From positions 992,001 through 1,056,000 of the forward strand of contig CM034141.1 of NCBI GenBank assembly GCA_019914995.1: DNA of 64,000 nucleotides, in the 5' to 3' direction. How positions within the stretch are numbered: the first letter of the stretch is position 1; every line of letters starts with the position of its first letter. A model generated the notes under the pieces. That model made no database searches, was not told where the DNA came from, and worked only from the letters and a program-made list of their open reading frames with translations. Position numbers and translations under genes: made by a program. The stretch comes from Acanthochlamys bracteata (taxonomy: Eukaryota; Streptophyta; Magnoliopsida; Pandanales; Velloziaceae). Positions 6,416-23,626 of the stretch are shown here, one piece after another.

Positions 6416-9035
6416 TTACGTAGCTCTGTTTTTCTCCGGCACGGCAACGACCCCGTCGACGGCCGCGGCGGGGTCAGTCCAATTAGTTTCTCCCCAATGC
6501 TTCAGCATATCTTTCCAATCACAGTACTCGCCTATGCAAATGTCCATCCTCTTATCTCTTATCTTCCACTTCCAATGCCCATCGGAAAAGTTCGCCTTCG
6601 CCGCTTGTCGTCGGTTCCATTCGATCCCTGCTTTCCTTCTCGAGTCAAGCAGACAGTACTCCTGCAACTTCTCCGGCATCGCGTCGTGCACCTTCCACCA
6701 TTTCTCATGCGCCTCGTCGCTTGCAAACTCCCGTTGATCTTCCACGTCCCAGTTGCAATCGTAGTCCCTACGGAAAAAAAAACGCTAATCTGATTGAGGT
6801 TCAATATAGTATGAAAATTCAACTAAGCGCTAGCATTGCAATTTACCTATAACACAACCAAGGTTTAAGGCCAAGGTAATGCAAGACGTAAAGCACCGGC
6901 GGGTCTGCGGTGAACAGCTTTGTCTTCTTTGCCTTCACCGCATCATCGTCACCGATCCAGAAGTTCTTCAAGAAGTTCATGTGCTTCGGAACACGGTGCC
7001 ACCAAGTAAAAATCTCATTCAAGTACCCTTGGTCGCCGCCGTTGTACGATTCGATCTCATTGATATATTCCATCAACAACGAGAATGTGCAGTTCGACGG
7101 CTCGACGACCATGACCCCGGAGTTGAATAACGTGGCGTTGTTTCCTGTCGCAGATATCTCCGGCAAAGAAAAAAGATCGTCGATATTTCTGAATATGAGA
7201 AGATCGGCGTCGATGAAGACGAGCTTGGAGTAGTCTGTGAGCTGCCACAGCCGGAACTTGCTGTAGTTCCACTCGTTATATGCGTCCCGTTGAGCTTTGG
7301 GGTTTCGAATACGGTCGACGGTGCGAACTTTCCATCCGGCGGATTGTAATCCTCGCCGATTTCGGTCGCTAATGCTGTCGTCGACGAGGATGACGAGGTC
7401 ACGCGTGGATCCTGCCATGCGGATGCTCTGTGCGGCGACGATGGCGCCACAGACGTACTCGTCGGCTGAGTGAAGGATGGTTACGTATGCTTCTCTTTTG
7501 CCGGAGTTTGATCCTGCCTTTACTTCATTGTTTTCTGTAATGTTCAAAAACACCGGCTTTACGTTTCTACTTTCTACTCTTTTCATTCTAATAATTAACT
7601 TTTTCAATAAATAATTTATAATATTTTAAATTTTTTAAAATCTATATTCTAAAATAATAATCTAATTATGGTTGGGGTGAAGAATTATATATATAATCAG
7701 AAGCAACATCTCTTTATGTAAAATTTAGTTGATAAACATATCCTATTATTATACAGTTTCGGATCATCACAGCAAGGTATTATCAAAATTAAAAAGAAAA
7801 TTATTGATAAGCAGATCCATGTTTTTCAGTTTTCGAAAGTTGGAATATTAAAAAGAAAAAACTTCAGTTAACAAATATTAAGTCATAAGATAGTTGACTA
7901 ATAAACTCAAATTCTAACAATATCTATTTCTTTAAAGGGTATGAAATTTGGTTACTGACCTGCTTCAGCGTTGAGAGGAAGAGCAAGCTCACAAGAACCA
8001 ACCGGTAGCTGGAGCTTTCGCCGGAGATTATCCAACTCAGGCCTGTAAAGCCACACATTTCTACCCTTATGAACAATCTCATTACACAGAAAAATATTCG
8101 GAATCGGAAAAAAATCCGTCAAAATTAGCACGTTAGCTGCATAATGATCTCCCCTTCTTCCAAATCCTGCTGCAATTTTCGCAGCTGTTAACTGCAAATG
8201 CAACCTTGTAATATCTCTAGACCAGTTCTTAGTCCCCGGAGATGGAAGTTTAACTGCAACAAGATCAAATATTGTTCCTATTTGTATTACAGGATCAGGT
8301 AATCGTGGACAAGTTGGAGTTTCTGATTCTTGTTCTTCGTCAATCCATTCAGGATACAAAGTGTTCCAAGTGATGCTATCATCAACAGGTTCAAGATGAA
8401 CAACAGAAATTTTGGCATGAGGAATGAATCTCTTCCATTGTTCAGTTTCAGTACCATTGAAATTCAAGAGAGCGATACTAAGTCTTTCTTTTCTTCGGTT
8501 TAACTTCGATAACGCTTTCGATATTTCGTTCCAGTCGATTTCTAAATGCGATTCGTAGCTTGGATCATTCGTTGAAACTCTTCTCCAAATCCAATTGACA
8601 TCAACAAACCTGCTGCTTTACAAGAAAATTTTCAGTAATGAAGGATATGAATTTGAAGTTAAATCGAAAGAACGTAATTGATACACGTATGCATTACGTA
8701 CATACCTAGAGCTGTTGTATAGCAAATGATTGCTGGGATTAAAAGCTGCTGGGAAATTGAAGAAAGTATAAATTGTTGCGAGTAAGATCACGGTGAATAG
8801 AAACTTGAAATTCAAACATTTTTCAGTAATAATCGAAAGCATTTTCGATTTTTCAGTATTAATCTTGAAGCATTTTCGGATCCTTCTTCTTTTGCTGCCA
8901 GTTTCATCTCTGCTGTAGCAACAACCCAAAAAAAAAAAACAATTCATGAAAACAATGCAAAAAATTTAAGATTTTTTTCATAATTTTAATTTGTTGAGAA
9001 AAAAATGGAGCTTCTTACCCTGTTACTGAAACCAT
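6416..9035 (-). CDS. UDP-glucuronate:xylan alpha-glucuronosyltransferase (GUX, GT8 family)
   Basis: Five coding exons on the minus strand: 9019-9035, 8706-8912, 7960-8609, 6847-7513 and 6416-6767, giving about 630 residues. GUX enzymes add glucuronic acid branches to xylan in the Golgi. A basic cytosolic stretch is followed by one membrane anchor near residues 27-47, as in a type II Golgi protein. The GT8 domain starts at YVTILHSADEYVCGA. The metal-binding DXD is in FIDADLLIFRNID, and EWNYSKFRLWQLTDY, NGGDQGYLNE, HYLGLKPWLCYRDYDCNWD and the terminal MLKHWGETNWTD are GUX hallmarks. The last two motifs are rebuilt exactly across the 79-nt final intron. The first coding exon carries only 17 nt (MVSVTG). 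It is closest to the GUX1-GUX3 clade; paralogue unresolved. Confidence 0.92.
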
Positions 9036-15251: not shown

Positions 15252-15499
15252 GCTGCGTTTGAAAAGTTATTTATTAATTTTTTTTAATTTTTTTTATTTA
15301 TGTTTTTAAATATATATTTTTAAAGTATATAAAAAATTTATTTAAAAATTTAGAAAGTGTAGAAAAATTTTACGGAGTGAGATCTTTTTATTGTATATTT
15401 TTATTTTTTTTTAAAATAAAAAAATAAAACTTATTTAAAAAAAATAAAAATATTTTTTATTTTAAAAAAATTTTATTTTATAAGCATTTTTAAACGCCC
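15252..15499. repeat. AT-rich MITE, family A, best-preserved reference copy
   Basis: The ends are GCGTTTGAAAAG on the left and TTTTTAAACGCC on the right, an imperfect terminal inverted repeat around an almost pure A/T core of about 248 bp. The asymmetric middle, AGAAAGTGTAGAAAAATTTT then GAGTGAGATCTTTTTATTG, is repeated almost base for base on the opposite strand in the element at 21539-21791. That proves a repeat family and not chance A/T composition. There is no coding capacity. Confidence 0.65.
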
Positions 15500-15853: not shown

Positions 15854-16078
15854 CGCCCCTTTAATCATGTATTATAAGAATATACATTATTATTTTTTAA
15901 AAGAAACTTTGATTTTCGGGACACATCAGGTTCAGTTGAACACAACACCTAACACAGGTTGAAACAGAACTGAAATGAAAGCAACTACTCACCAAACCAA
16001 AAGCACTCACAACTAATACACGCCATGTTCTATTTCCCCAACTCCCACATTTACTCTTCTGCTAACTCTTCTCCGGCA

Positions 16079-16741
16079 ATGGCCTACACCCTTGTCTTAA
16101 TGCTCCTCAGTCTCCTTTCTTTCTCCGGCACCGGCGTTAACGCGGAAACCGAAACCCAACTGCACTTCTATTTCCACGACATAGTCGCAGGTCCGAACCG
16201 GTCAGCCATCCGTGTCGCAGAAGCTCCTTCATCGAACTCATCCGCAACGAGTTTCGGGGTCGTCGTAATGATCGACAACCCGTTAACAGAATCACCGGAC
16301 GTGAACTCGAAACTCGTCGGAAGAGCACAAGGGACGTACTCGTTTGCTTCACAAGAAGAAGTTGGAGCACTGCTCATGGCAATGAACTTGGTTTTCTTGG
16401 AAGGTGATTTAAACGGTAGCAGTGTTACCGTGTTCGGACGTAACTTGGTTACCAGTGATGTTCGAGAAATGCCGATTATCGGCGGTACAGGAAAGTTCCG
16501 GCTAGCTCGAGGCTACGTGCTAGCTCATACAAATTATTTTGATCTAGTTACTGGTAACACGATTGTGGAGTATAACGCTACTGTGTTGCATAATAATGGA
16601 GCAGCTGTAGTTGATAGTTCTACTAGCAGTGGTACTACAAGCACTGCAGCTACTACTGATGCTTCTTCTGGAGTTGCGAAGGAGTTGCAGAAATTGTTAC
16701 TGATTTCGTGTTTGTTTTTGTCTTTCTATAATCTTTTGTAA
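16079..16741 (+). CDS. Dirigent protein with a predicted GPI-anchor tail
   Basis: Intronless. The start at 16079 is preferred because it opens directly into a signal peptide (MAYTLVLMLLSLLSF, cleavage likely after GVNA). An in-frame ATG at 16025 would add 18 residues in front of it. The dirigent beta-barrel runs from ETQLHFYFHDIVAGPN through NPLTESP, GRAQGTYSFAS, GRNLVTSDVREMPIIGGTG, KFRLARGY and ends at EYNATVLH, as in DIR22/DIR23-type proteins. Such proteins normally stop there. This one continues about 50 residues: a Ser/Thr-rich linker, small residues (DASSG) that could serve as omega site, and a hydrophobic end (LLLISCLFLSFYNLL). Dirigents steer phenoxy-radical coupling or related cyclisations in the apoplast; a membrane-held form is inferred. 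An AATAAA lies near 16772. Confidence 0.9.
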   Translation: MAYTLVLMLLSLLSFSGTGVNAETETQLHFYFHDIVAGPNRSAIRVAEAPSSNSSATSFGVVVMIDNPLTESPDVNSKLVGRAQGTYSFASQEEVGALLMAMNLVFLEGDLNGSSVTVFGRNLVTSDVREMPIIGGTGKFRLARGYVLAHTNYFDLVTGNTIVEYNATVLHNNGAAVVDSSTSSGTTSTAATTDASSGVAKELQKLLLISCLFLSFYNLL

Positions 16742-18182
16742 AATTTTTGTGGATGTTCATTATTTTTCATACAAATAAAGCTCTGCTTTGAATATCGTGT
16801 TATTAATTTGAGCGCATAATAAAAGCTTTCTGCTAATTCAAAGTTTTAATTGTTTGCTGTTTCTGGATGGTGGTGAGAAAAAAGACACCGCTGATTGAAA
16901 CGTCTTTCAAATTCAATAATTAAAAAAACAAGCAAAAAATTAGAGACCATTTGTAATTAATTAGAGATCATTTAACAATTGCTTTAATTAGAAGATCACA
17001 AGTACTTGGGCTAACCTGCGCCAATACAGCCTGGCCCGTATATGGTGGTATCACATATGGCCCATAAGGATCAGCCCATCTTTCTCGCCCATAAAATATT
17101 GGTTATGCAGTGCCGTCGGTGTGGATTGAAGATAATGTTTCAGAGTTGGTTGAGCAGAAGATGCTTACGTGGCTTGGAGATGCTATACGATGGCGAAGCT
17201 GATGCTTGCTTTGGTTCTAATTCTTTTGGCAAAATAACGGCGACCACATGATCCGAGTCCGGGCGATTTTTCTGTCTAATGAACGAGGAATCTGTTTTGA
17301 AATCGTTGAACCTGCACCCACTCGGTGCTCGAGTATATGATTCAACTGGAATCACACAAGCGTAGATTGATAGAAATTTTCAGTACCTGCAAATTTAGAA
17401 GGTAGATAGTAGAGGAAATCAAATTTGAAAATAAACTTTAGAGTGATTATTAAAATATTTTAAATATTTTAAACAAATAAAGTTGAGTTCAGAGCAACTA
17501 AAATATTAGTCATCATTTCATTTTAATTTTTATTTTTCATATAATTTTTTAATTTTAAAAAAATTAAAACATATAAATAAATTATATCTTATAAAACTTA
17601 TATATGTTATATTTTAAAATAAAAACTAAATTTATTTTTAAAAACTTTATTTTAAGCAGTTGGAAAGGACTTCTAAATTACCCAATTGAACGTGGATCAT
17701 TCCACTGTTAATCATGGATTAGTTGCGAGCTCCTATTTTATTTTTACAAAAGAGAGTATTTAGAAGTGTTTATAGAATATATTTTATTTTTAAAAAATAA
17801 GTTTTATTTTTTATTTTTAAAATAATAATAATAATATAGAATGAAAAGACTAATTACATAAAAATATATTTTTTAAATATAACATTTAAATATTTATAAT
17901 ATATATTAAAATATATAAAATTAAAAATTAAAGAATATCGTTAAAAAATATAATCCCAAACGAGTACATGCAAATCCCACACTTTTAGTTGCCATCTGTC
18001 CGACATGTAGTTGAGTTTTGGCAACTCTCAAAACCATTAATCAATCCTACTTAAGCTAACCCTAACCACTCCACCCTAACCACTAATAAATTCAAACCCA
18101 ACCCATTTCACTCGCTACAAATACTAACTAAACACAATAGCACCACCTTCGTGTACGCACAACTCTCCTTCAATATCAAACA
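16742..18182. other. Spacer between the first and second dirigent genes
   Basis: No supported gene. Two family A-like AT-rich elements are visible at about 17455-17660 and 17760-17955. The interval 17040-17400 is less A/T-rich and open in both directions, but nothing in it is recognisable. The last 60 bases lead into the next dirigent gene, with a TATA-like CTACAAATAC near 18115. Confidence 0.6.
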
Positions 18183-18731
18183 ATGGCGCCCTATACCTCT
18201 CTAACGACGACATCCATTCTCTTCTTGTTCTTATTCATCGGCTCCGGCGAAGCGATAACAAGCGCTAGCAGAAAACTCTCAGACACAGAGACTGAAACCC
18301 AGCTGCATTTCTACTTCCATGACATAGTGACCGGGCCGAACCCAACTGCTATTCGAGTAGCGCAAGCTCCATTATCTCTTTCAACTGCCACAGGATTTGG
18401 AGCTGTTGTCATGATAGACGACCCGTTAACAGAAGAACCCGACCCAAATTCTAAGCTTGTAGGTAGGGCCCAAGGCATGTATGCACTTGCATCACAAGAA
18501 GATGCAGGATTGCTCATGACAATGAACTTGGCTTTTGTCGATGGAGATTTCAACGGGAGCAGTCTTGCATTGCTCGGCCGGAATGCGGTTTTTAATGATG
18601 TTAGAGAGATGCCGATCGTCGGAGGAAGCGGAAAATTCCGGCTTGCTAGAGGTTATGCTCTTGCCAGGACTCATGATATGGATGTTGGAGGGAATGCTTG
18701 TGTTGAGTACAATGTTACTGTCTTGCATTAA
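18183..18731 (+). CDS. Dirigent protein (DIR22/23-like), second of the tandem cluster
   Basis: Intronless, 182 residues. A signal peptide (hydrophobic ILFLFLFIGSG) precedes the dirigent domain ETQLHFYFHDIVTGPNPTAI, with DDPLTEEPDPNSKLVGRAQG, FNGSSLALLGRN, DVREMPIVGGSGKFRLARGY and a normal ending EYNVTVLH. It is highly similar to the first gene across the domain (ETQLHFYFHDIV, NSKLVGRAQG, VREMPI, GKFRLARGY) but lacks that gene's C-terminal extension. This points to tandem duplication followed by divergence at the C terminus. The role is stereocontrol or acceleration of radical coupling in the apoplast; the substrate is unknown. Confidence 0.93.
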   Translation: MAPYTSLTTTSILFLFLFIGSGEAITSASRKLSDTETETQLHFYFHDIVTGPNPTAIRVAQAPLSLSTATGFGAVVMIDDPLTEEPDPNSKLVGRAQGMYALASQEDAGLLMTMNLAFVDGDFNGSSLALLGRNAVFNDVREMPIVGGSGKFRLARGYALARTHDMDVGGNACVEYNVTVLH

Positions 18732-19607: not shown

Positions 19608-19669
19608 GTTCTATTATAGAAGATGTATAGCTCGCTTGCTATCTTTCTCTAGTTAGCTACTCTACGACG

Positions 19670-20185
19670 ATGGCTACCTCTCTACCCTTAACCATTTCAA
19701 CTATTCTACTCCTACTCTTCTTCTCTCCGGCGACGATCGTCGAGTCGAAGAAAACCCTGCTCCATTTTTACCTACACGACATCGTTAGCCAGCCGAACCC
19801 TACCGCTGTTCTCGTCGCCGGACCAACACCAGCTCCGTCTTTCGGTGACATAGTCGTCATTGACGACCCGCTTACTGCTGACCCTACTATAACCTCCGAG
19901 CTCATTGGAAGAGCTCAGGGGTCGTACGTTTTCACCGCACTGTCTGCATCGGAGCTGGTTATAACAATGAGTGTGACGTTTGTTTTCGTGACTGGAGAGT
20001 TCAATGGAAGCACTCTTTCAGTGCTTGGCCGGAACGATGTGTTATCGGCGGTAAGGGAGTTGCCTATCGTTGGAGGGACCGGAGTTTTCCGGTTTGCTCG
20101 AGGGTTTATGCAGCTCAAGACAGTTTCTTTCAACAGGACTTCCGGCGATGCAGTTGTGGAGTTTAACGTAACTGTGTTATGCTAA
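19670..20185 (+). CDS. Dirigent protein, third and most divergent of the cluster
   Basis: Intronless, 171 residues. A signal peptide (LTISTILLLLFFSPATIVES) is followed by KTLLHFYLHDIVSQPNPTAV, DDPLTADPTITSELIGRAQG, FNGSTLSVLGRND, VRELPIVGGTGVFRFARGF and the ending EFNVTVLC, all typical of dirigents of the DIR22/23 type. Many positions differ from the two upstream genes (LHD for FHD, VFRFARGF for KFRLARGY), so this duplication is older than the one that made genes one and two. The substrate cannot be deduced. Confidence 0.92.
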   Translation: MATSLPLTISTILLLLFFSPATIVESKKTLLHFYLHDIVSQPNPTAVLVAGPTPAPSFGDIVVIDDPLTADPTITSELIGRAQGSYVFTALSASELVITMSVTFVFVTGEFNGSTLSVLGRNDVLSAVRELPIVGGTGVFRFARGFMQLKTVSFNRTSGDAVVEFNVTVLC

Positions 20186-21160: not shown

Positions 21161-21538
21161 AAACGAAGACTAATACAAAGTATAATGTACATTCATTTCA
21201 TTGTATATATTGTAGGTAAAAATCTAGCCCCTTAAGGATACAAGCGTCTATTATACATAAATACAGCTGCAGTAGAGCCGGAATAAGGAAGAAAAAAAAA
21301 GTTGTTATTTATACGCATTATACGCGCAACATTTTACTCAACAACAACAAGACCGTATGTACAACTAATCAAAACTGTACATGGTGATATCCGTATATAT
21401 GCAATCACGTAGACTTTAACTTGTCCAACTTAAACTTCCGCTACGAAAAAATATTCAAATTCGAAAAAAATAAGTATAACGAATTAACTACTCTACAGAA
21501 AGAATGGACAAGTTTTGAATGCGTACCGAGGTTTTTCA

Positions 21539-21791
21539 GGCGTTTGAAATTATTTATGAAATAAAATTTTTTTAAATTGAAAGATATTTTTATTTTTTTT
21601 TTAAAAACAAATTTTATTTTTTTTATTTTAAAAAAAATAAAAATATGCAATAAAAAGATCTCATTTCGTAAAATTTTTTCTACACTTTCTAAATTTTTAA
21701 ATAAATTTTTTATATATTTATAAAATATGTATTAAAAAATATAAAATAAAAAAAATTAATAAGCAGTTTATGGTAAACCGTGCCAAACACC
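21539..21791. repeat. AT-rich MITE, family A, overlapping the 3' end of the GLTP gene
   Basis: Left end GGCGTTTG (21539-21546) and right end CAAACACC (21784-21791) bound a 253-bp A/T-rich element. Read on the minus strand, the middle AGAAAGTGTAGAAAAAATTT then AATGAGATCTTTTTATTG is nearly identical to the reference copy at 15252-15499. The coding frame of the GLTP gene enters the element from the right and stops inside it at 21718. Confidence 0.65.
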
Positions 21792-23626
21792 CCATTTCAT
21801 CCAAGTATGGTCTGAGTATTGGTACCAAATTCTTGATTTCCTTTTTCAGTGCATTGTAATCTTGGCCTTGGCCAACTAGTAGATCGATGAAGATGTCCTT
21901 CTCAGGTATCAGCTTCAGTGCTACCTTTTACAAAATTAGAGTACGAAACCTTGTTTGCAATAATTCGATTTTCATAGAATTTCATTCGGATTATTGCAGC
22001 ATGTTTAACTACCTTATACGCTGCTGATGAGATCCAACCGTGCCACGGCTTCAACGTGCTGCTGTATGCTTCTTCAACCATCTGCTCAAGCCCCGGTTCA
22101 GAGTCCTTCTCTAATCTTTCTAACAATGCCAGACTGAAATCTATCGCCCTGATAAGGACCGGCACAAAATGGTATAAGTTGATAACTGGGCAATGTAACG
22201 TTCATGCGACTGCAAAGCTGAAGTTGATAACTGGGCATTGCCAGACTTTAAACAAAGGCCTGACATTGTTTTAAGAAAATGAAACCATCAAGCTTAATTT
22301 TACAGGTTCTAAGAATTAGTTTTACATGTATACCTGGTAAGCCATACAACAGCTCTGCTGCAGCTGTCGGCTTTCCTCGCCGTTCCATGATCGGATTCTT
22401 TCTTCAAAACTTCTGCTAAACATGCATAAGTAGAAGGATTTGATACGCAGACATCTTCAAGTCTCTGTATAAGCAGAAACAACATTCACTTCCATACAGA
22501 TTTCTACTCTTGATATATATATATATCAATGAAACAAAGGGACACTTTATGCATAGCAACTCACAAGAAAAAAAAATGTTTTGAACCATTATTGTTAAGA
22601 AAAAAATATAATTTCACATTATTTATCAAAAATTTTAAATAATTTTTCTACCAAAAATTTATTTTGGATAACTTTATTATACTTACTTTCATAATTTTAT
22701 TTTTATAAATTTATTTATTAAAGACATTATTTTTTAAATATATTTTTGAATCACTTTCTGATAAATAAAAAAGTCCTCGGAGGCTCGTGCCACTAGCCAA
22801 TAATAAGTTTCTATGCCAACTAACCTCATCCATAAATCATAATTCCAAAACAGTTTCTATTTCATCTTTTTGTGGCAAAGAAAGATTGAAGCATGCGTTA
22901 GCCACAATCCCCAAGACTTCACCTAGTTTCAAAATGGTTTGGAGCAGATAAAAACACAAACATCAATAACATTAACAAAAACAATCAAACATGATAACTC
23001 TGATTTAGAAGTTGATTTTGTCATGAAATGGAAATTAAAATTTTTTTTCTTTTATAATCTTTTGTTCTTATTCATGAAGGTTGAAAATTGAATAGCGCAC
23101 GTCTGGATTTTCTTGGATACCTGTATGTTTCTCTGTATGTCCTGCTGCAGTACTGCCATGGTCAGCCCGACCTTATCTGCACCATCAAAATCTTAGAAGT
23201 TTTTTTTGTCTAACACTATGACTGCTTGTGTTTGAAATTGAATGAGCAGATCAAAATCATTCACTATATTTGATTAATATTGCATAAAGATTCAATCAGC
23301 AAAGAACAGGAATTTGAGATTGAGTTAAAAAATCTGCTAAGTAATTTACCAAGAACATGAAGAAGAAGATTGGAAACGGCAAGTAATGCAAAGGTGGAAA
23401 CTTTCTTCTCACCACCGCTGCCGCCGTCGACGCTGTTCGCCGATAACAAAACCAATAACTCCTCCACGGGAACCCTTATTTCCGATTGCCGCCGTTCCCC
23501 TGTTTTCAGATGACCACAACCATCATCAACAACAACAACAATAATTTCTTCTCTAATCTGTTCTTCAGCTGATTCATCGTCGTTATTGTTTAAGGAAACA
23601 ACATTCATGCTCTGATCAACTGCCAT
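21718..23626 (-). CDS. GLTP-domain lipid transfer protein (ACD11-type) with a MITE-derived C terminus
   Basis: Five exons on the minus strand: 23350-23626, 23121-23176, 22334-22464, 22013-22148 and 21718-21924. All junctions are GT-AG and in frame, giving about 268 residues. Proteins of this fold move ceramide-1-phosphate or related sphingolipids between membranes; ACD11 is the plant model. Visible domain pieces are LAVSNLLLHVLDKVGLTMAVLQQDI, GTARKADSCSRAVVWLTR (basic headgroup-binding region), AIDFSLALLERL and LKPWHGWISSAAYKVALKLIP with the conserved Trp-His. The N-terminal 65 residues are acidic, low-complexity and probably disordered. After RPYLDEMG the normal C-terminal helix is replaced by CLARFTINCLLIFFILYFLI and a stop, all encoded by the MITE at 21539-21791. 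That tail is hydrophobic enough to be a tail anchor. Ligand and effect are unknown. Confidence 0.85.

Follow-up and report, generated by a model that had tools for sequence, protein, structure and literature searches.

Can a transposable element that lands in a coding exon turn a soluble lipid carrier into a membrane-bound protein, or does it damage the gene? The question is raised by a GLTP-domain gene in a 64,000-nucleotide stretch of the Acanthochlamys bracteata genome (195.5 Mb), positions 992,001 to 1,056,000 of contig CM034141.1 (G000:C16:992001-1056000), referred to here as the window. The gene lies on the minus strand of this contig, C16, and its fifth exon contains a miniature inverted-repeat transposable element (MITE). 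A preliminary description proposed that the element supplies the gene with its stop codon and a hydrophobic tail, by which a soluble sphingolipid carrier may have become membrane-bound, unless the allele is damaged. Analysis of the locus makes it probable that a young MITE truncates one of two duplicate GLTP genes and leaves it null or weakened, with the duplicate on contig C18 carrying the function and the tail arising as a by-product.

The element ends the open frame before the predicted last exon

A single open frame runs through the predicted exons 1–4 and into exon 5, which starts at 21924 (Table 1). The native reading of exon 5 ends in ...EIKNLVPILRPYLDEM, and the element enters directly after RPYLDEM, about 12 nt short of the exon 5 donor. 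The repeat then adds GCLARFTINCLLIFFILYFLIHIL before the stop TAA at 21720-21718. The in-frame stop inside the element, on the minus strand, is as first described; the element-encoded residues are also real, with a count of 24 rather than about 23, and the inserted sequence is a real repeat, with a size of about 255 bp (21793-21539) rather than 253 bp. The disrupted exon had been taken for the final one, which is incorrect, as the normal GLTP end is found in a predicted exon 6 further downstream, at 21440-21405.

The duplicate GLTP gene on C18 (1133456-1130978, minus strand) has an intact frame, and the two proteins share 81% identity over 231 codons and 87% over the 150 codons of the GLTP part. 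The C18 gene ends with RPFLDEIYETL, a 101-bp intron (GTAACA to TTTGCAG), and an 11-codon exon reading RKFKLDKLKTK before the stop. In the window, the last exon, reading RKFKLDKLKST before its stop, starts after 98 bp beyond the element, and its acceptor TTTTTTCGTAG is intact. The last-exon comparison took in four GLTP loci, C18 and the paralogues on C1, C2, and C3; the latter gave the candidate last exons AEVGLDNLKAS, AGVGLDDLKAS, and ENVDFYNSKAP, the equal length of which is partly built in, as they were sought first by frames and then by a pattern requiring 11 codons. From these last exons, the ancestral gene most likely had six exons, and the element is placed in the fifth, some 12 nt short of its donor.

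No element-free allele was found in the assembly, where the flanks match only the window itself and C18. The single assembly and the absence of a second allele are compatible with an assembly artefact, in which the insertion would be missing from the real chromosome or from the sequenced plant. However, the element carries variants of its own that set it apart within the family, and on either side the sequence aligns colinearly with the C18 gene and the region 3' of it, making an artefact highly improbable.

Predicted fate of the transcripts

To score splice donors, an approximate plant matrix was used. The old intron 5 donor after 21527 (TCG/GTACGC) scores 0.64, and the C18 donor scores 0.07. 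Should the old donor remain in use, the last junction would follow the element stop at a distance of 191 nt. The usual limit for nonsense-mediated decay is 50–55 nt upstream of the last junction, and the stop is therefore in a decay-prone position. The three AATAAA motifs found in the element, 3' of the stop, could end transcripts inside it.

We propose that a high-copy Tourist-like MITE, probably young, inserted into the penultimate exon of one duplicate only, about 12 nt from its donor. Transcripts that splice intron 5 would carry the stop at the distance given above and would be decayed; alternatively, transcripts would end at AT-rich signals within the element. By either route the window gene would become null or weakened, and the C18 copy, with its frame intact, would carry the function, a course of gradual duplicate loss.

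The intact acceptor and exon 6 also leave room for splicing around the element, from a donor after 21826 (TTG/GTACCA) or from one after 21791 at the element edge. Nine GT dinucleotides from exon 5 to the old donor were tested. Only the one after 21826 and another far upstream are in phase 0, and none of the nine restores the full normal end. The donor after 21826 is predicted to join ...EIKNL to RKFKLDKLKST and its stop, giving ...EIKNLRKFKLDKLKST, a product with a normal end that is 15 residues shorter than the C18 arrangement, while the donor after 21791 is predicted to yield the short frame-shifted tail GGSLSWTS. Their scores are -1.43 (21826) and 0.32 (21791), set against 0.07 for the donor of C18 and 0.64 for the retained donor. 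Precedents appear in the available text of three reports, which describe a sorghum MITE spliced out of a transcript (PMC9048912), frame-preserving isoforms of Arabidopsis RPP4 that persist despite an exonic ATCOPIA4 (PMC10241880), and MITE-related alternative splicing in mulberry (PMC6593561). Nevertheless, the matrix rates the in-frame donor as weak, and a protein made from it would lack the segment preceding exon 6; we regard splicing around the element as unlikely. By the preliminary description's own standard, transcripts spliced past the element to a downstream exon with a normal GLTP C terminus would refute an element-encoded end. The DNA does contain such an exon, but among nearby splices the one in-frame route to it that was identified costs the 15 residues noted above.

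The inserted element and its family

A first look gave 4,501 candidates, and scoring was applied to 40 of them, namely the window copy in exon 5 and 39 others, the latter with 85–91% identity. The alignment of 42 copies consists of the window copy, the second window copy at 15252-15499, 38 of the 39 other scored copies (C10:7807982 was left out), and two copies, L091 and L092, which came from a protein search with the tail and were hence picked for a tail-like product. The copy at 15252-15499, previously called near-identical, aligns with the family but differs from the consensus by 11.6%. When up to 3 mismatches are allowed, the 34-base core of the element matches at 2,141 places in the genome and its reversed control at none, a notable genomic load from one MITE family.

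Inspection of the aligned copies by eye indicated terminal inverted repeats in many of them, with ends of the kind GGG..YGTTTGG and CAAACGCCCC; the 3' end of the window copy looks shortened. A strict joint test, which demands both an exact 3-bp flanking repeat and an inverted match of at least 8/12, was passed by 7 of the 42 copies and failed by 35, including the window copy. The flanking repeats of the passing copies are ATA in three, TAA in two, TTC in one, and TCA in one, where TWA is expected. No target duplication was recognised at the exon 5 insertion by the strict test or by comparison with C18 by eye; in the latter comparison with the empty site, both the 3' element end and the target duplication appear eroded, and there is no obvious return to the C18 frame in the 12 nt that remain. 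With its short length, high copy number, and inverted ends, the element is likely a Tourist-like (PIF/Harbinger) MITE.

The flanks of the 40 fetched copies (300 bp for most, about 200 bp or less for L091 and L092) were also translated, and 4 of 240 side-frames hold at least 80 codons open into the element (L066, L089, L054, and L082). These may be other genes that read into the MITE, or chance.

The hydrophobic tail within the family range

Hydrophobicity was evaluated with the Kyte–Doolittle (KD) and Hessa scales. The extreme C terminus is an uninterrupted run of 19 residues, FTINCLLIFFILYFLIHIL, with a KD of 2.45 and a summed Hessa value of -1.85. The best segment elsewhere in the protein reaches a KD of 1.59 and a Hessa value of +7.0, and the protein has the single C-terminal hydrophobic segment expected of a tail-anchored protein. 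A clean control for the tail was formed by 39 other copies, without the window copy, L091, and L092. In the tail frame of these copies, a KD of at least 1.6 is found in 12 and a Hessa value of 0 or below in 5; the KD of the window tail is equalled or exceeded by 3 of them, and its Hessa value by 2. Read in this frame, the copies L061 (C3) and L054 (C8) would encode tails more hydrophobic than that of the window copy, with KD values of 2.84 and 2.67. In the full aligned set, 15 of 42 copies reach a KD of at least 1.6 in the tail frame (unrounded scores), and when all six frames are taken together this value is attained by 25 of 252 copy-frames (rounded scores).

Comparable stretches also arise outside the family. 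Among 8,250 run-on translations from random AT-rich positions in the window, 277 reach a KD of 1.6, all of them among the 1,534 with a length of 19 residues or more, and 61 of the translations reach a Hessa value of 0 or below. If the C18 gene retained intron 5, the resulting stretch would have a KD of 2.34 and a Hessa value of +0.41. Differences from the consensus occur at 4 of 75 sites in the tail-coding part and at 10 of 178 in the rest of the element, and in these small numbers the tail codons give no sign of constraint. The tail ranks near the hydrophobic extreme of the family but is not unique. Rather than a new membrane anchor, it most likely represents what this AT-rich element happens to encode when it is read in this particular frame.

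For the tail to act as an anchor, polyadenylation would have to take place inside the element, allowing transcripts to escape decay, and a stable protein with the 24-residue tail would then make the soluble sphingolipid carrier membrane-bound. The terminal position and scores of FTINCLLIFFILYFLIHIL, matched by so few of the control copies, are consistent with this outcome, as are the AATAAA motifs 3' of the stop and the presence in exons 2–4 of the lipid-motif residues (motif from the available text of PMC8953657). However, frame and composition explain much of the tail, as the 12 and 5 control copies above indicate, its sites show no sign of constraint, and the native C-terminal segment and the last exon are lost. 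We consider a membrane-anchored carrier improbable, and we would give slightly less weight still to an instant neofunctionalisation, in which the element would provide both anchor and polyadenylation signals and generate a tail-anchored GLTP from a soluble one in one step, with the duplicate remaining soluble. The open frame does contain the stop and the hydrophobic tail first reported, but the membrane-bound carrier is unsupported, given a decay-prone stop, the frequency of such tails in this frame, and the lack of demonstrated constraint; the damaged allele, named as the other option, is better supported.

Age of the insertion and constraint on the gene

With 14 of 253 sites departing from the family consensus, the window copy is the closest to it among the 42 copies, although the consensus is biased, most aligned copies having been picked for similarity to the window copy. 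Divergence from the consensus had been considered as a sign of age, and hence of selection after insertion; this was dropped, as only 2 of the 20 columns that differ from the consensus are private to the window copy. The open upstream frame therefore cannot be taken as evidence for maintenance of the tailed protein. The synonymous divergence (dS) of the two genes is 0.51 (NG86) or 0.36 (YN00), and relative to this divergence the insertion looks young.

Several observations weigh against a null or weakened window gene. The tail is among the most hydrophobic in its family, only 2 of the 39 others being as low on the Hessa scale. The small number of private differences suggests that too little time has passed since insertion for decay to be visible. 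The frame of exons 1–5 is fully open, and the ratio of nonsynonymous to synonymous divergence (dN/dS) in the GLTP part is low, 0.07/0.52 (NG86; exon 6 was left out as too short). Because this ratio is low, the gene appears to have been under constraint for much of its history, although the value would reflect mostly the time before insertion. A relative-rate test with the distant paralogues on C1 and C2 gave 1 versus 1–2 polarised sites among 21 differences and was uninformative.

A GLTP-like rather than ACD11-like protein

The GLTP domain (Pfam PF08718) scores above the cut-off in exon 4. The best PDB matches are FAPP2 (3.9e-15) and GLTP (4.3e-10), versus 5.2e-5 for ACD11. The available text of PMC8953657 gives the glycolipid-type motif as DxxxNxxK...WxxR...H and the ACD11/CPTP type as DxxxK...RxxxRxxR...H. 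Comparison by eye revealed that DIQRNIQR...WLTR...H of the window protein agrees with the glycolipid motif at 5 of the 6 named positions, with R replacing K. Two departures separate the protein from the ACD11/CPTP motif: in DIQRN, N stands where that motif has K, and in RAVVWLTR the middle R is replaced by W, while both remaining R residues are present. The ACD11-type label of the preliminary description is not borne out by this GLTP-like motif or by the ranking of FAPP2 and GLTP above ACD11. The window protein resembles human GLTP and the FAPP2 GLTP domain in its Pfam GLTP domain and its motif DxxxNxxR...WxxR...H, but differs from them in the R for K, an N-terminal extension, and the replaced C terminus. 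Since the C-terminal region of CPTP is reported to be positioned near the bilayer and the recognition centre (PMC8953657, available text), replacement of this region is unlikely to be neutral, by analogy. The available portions of PMC8091061 and PMC3097243 contain nothing decisive on the GLTP C terminus.

Table 1. Features of the GLTP-domain gene and the MITE copies in the window
Feature	Coordinates	Strand	Remarks
GLTP-domain gene, predicted exon 1	23350..23626	-	ATG at 23626; frame and donor common to C18 duplicate
GLTP-domain gene, predicted exon 2	23121..23176	-	
GLTP-domain gene, predicted exon 3	22334..22464	-	
GLTP-domain gene, predicted exon 4	22013..22148	-	Pfam GLTP, E 1.7e-10 at 22024-22162
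Exon 5 open frame	21718..21924	-	Native down to 21793 (...RPYLDEM), followed by 24 codons from the element and TAA 21720-21718
MITE, provisionally Tourist/PIF-Harbinger-like, about 255 bp	21539..21793	-	
Three AATAAA motifs in element, 3' of element stop	21589..21627	- (gene strand)	5' bases 21627, 21618, 21594; motif match only
Exon 5 end remnant, 12 nt	21527..21538	-	Then old intron 5 donor TCG/GTACGC; compared with C18 donor TTG/GTAACA
Old intron 5 (predicted)	21441..21526	-	Acceptor TTTTTTCGTAG
Ancestral last exon 6, surviving (predicted)	21405..21440	-	RKFKLDKLKST and stop; C18 homologous 3' region also matches
Second MITE copy, same family as exon 5 element	15252..15499	+	

Comparison with known insertions

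The insertion is ordinary in kind. According to the available text of PMC6824096, the Mariam miniature element in exon 6 of a wild emmer 5-formyltetrahydrofolate gene makes an earlier stop; both cases involve a short insert resembling a transposable element in a plant coding exon, an earlier stop, and a shorter frame. Mariam is of low copy number and has no terminal inverted repeats, whereas the window element is of high copy number, has such repeats, lies beside a donor, and encodes a hydrophobic tail. Plant Tourist (PIF/Harbinger) MITEs are likewise small, high in copy number, and bounded by inverted ends, and they make short AT-rich target duplications (PMC12595863, available text), in contrast to the window insertion, where none is recognisable. 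Arabidopsis chimeric transcripts of genes and transposable elements, such as RPP4 with ATCOPIA4 in an exon, indicate that elements within genes may bring early polyadenylation sites (PMC10241880, in the part available); that case concerns a long terminal repeat element with documented transcripts, whereas the window case concerns a MITE and predicted transcripts. A literature search combining transposable element, tail-anchored, and premature stop gave no related case among the matches listed.

The locus provides a clear example of a MITE that, beside a splice donor, ends a gene while the upstream frame stays untouched and a syntenic duplicate serves as a reference. It also advises caution, as AT-rich inserts or retained introns, when read in frame, readily yield tails that resemble membrane anchors. 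If the tailed protein were real, the locus would show a membrane-anchored lipid carrier arising in one step.

Neighbouring genes

On one side of the GLTP gene, two genes that we take to be PME-like and GUX-like keep their order and orientation on both contigs, and the two blocks are syntenic. The GUX/glycosyltransferase-like gene has an open exon in the window (6843-7625, minus strand) and in-frame stops in its C18 copy (L048:984-1667, minus strand), and the C18 PME-like match contains one frame change, either an intron or a frameshift. Each block seems to be losing a different gene, a reciprocal loss of the kind that ordinarily follows duplication. Queries with a second GUX-like exon and a kinase gave, respectively, no match on C18 and one weak 40% match, neither of which supports synteny. 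The gene at 19631-20185, which as a query had no match at 1e-4 in the C18 block 1120500-1143500, belongs to a set of three tandem genes on the plus strand (15974-16741, 18141-18731, and 19631-20185) that lie between the GUX-like and GLTP genes and are presumably dirigent-like.
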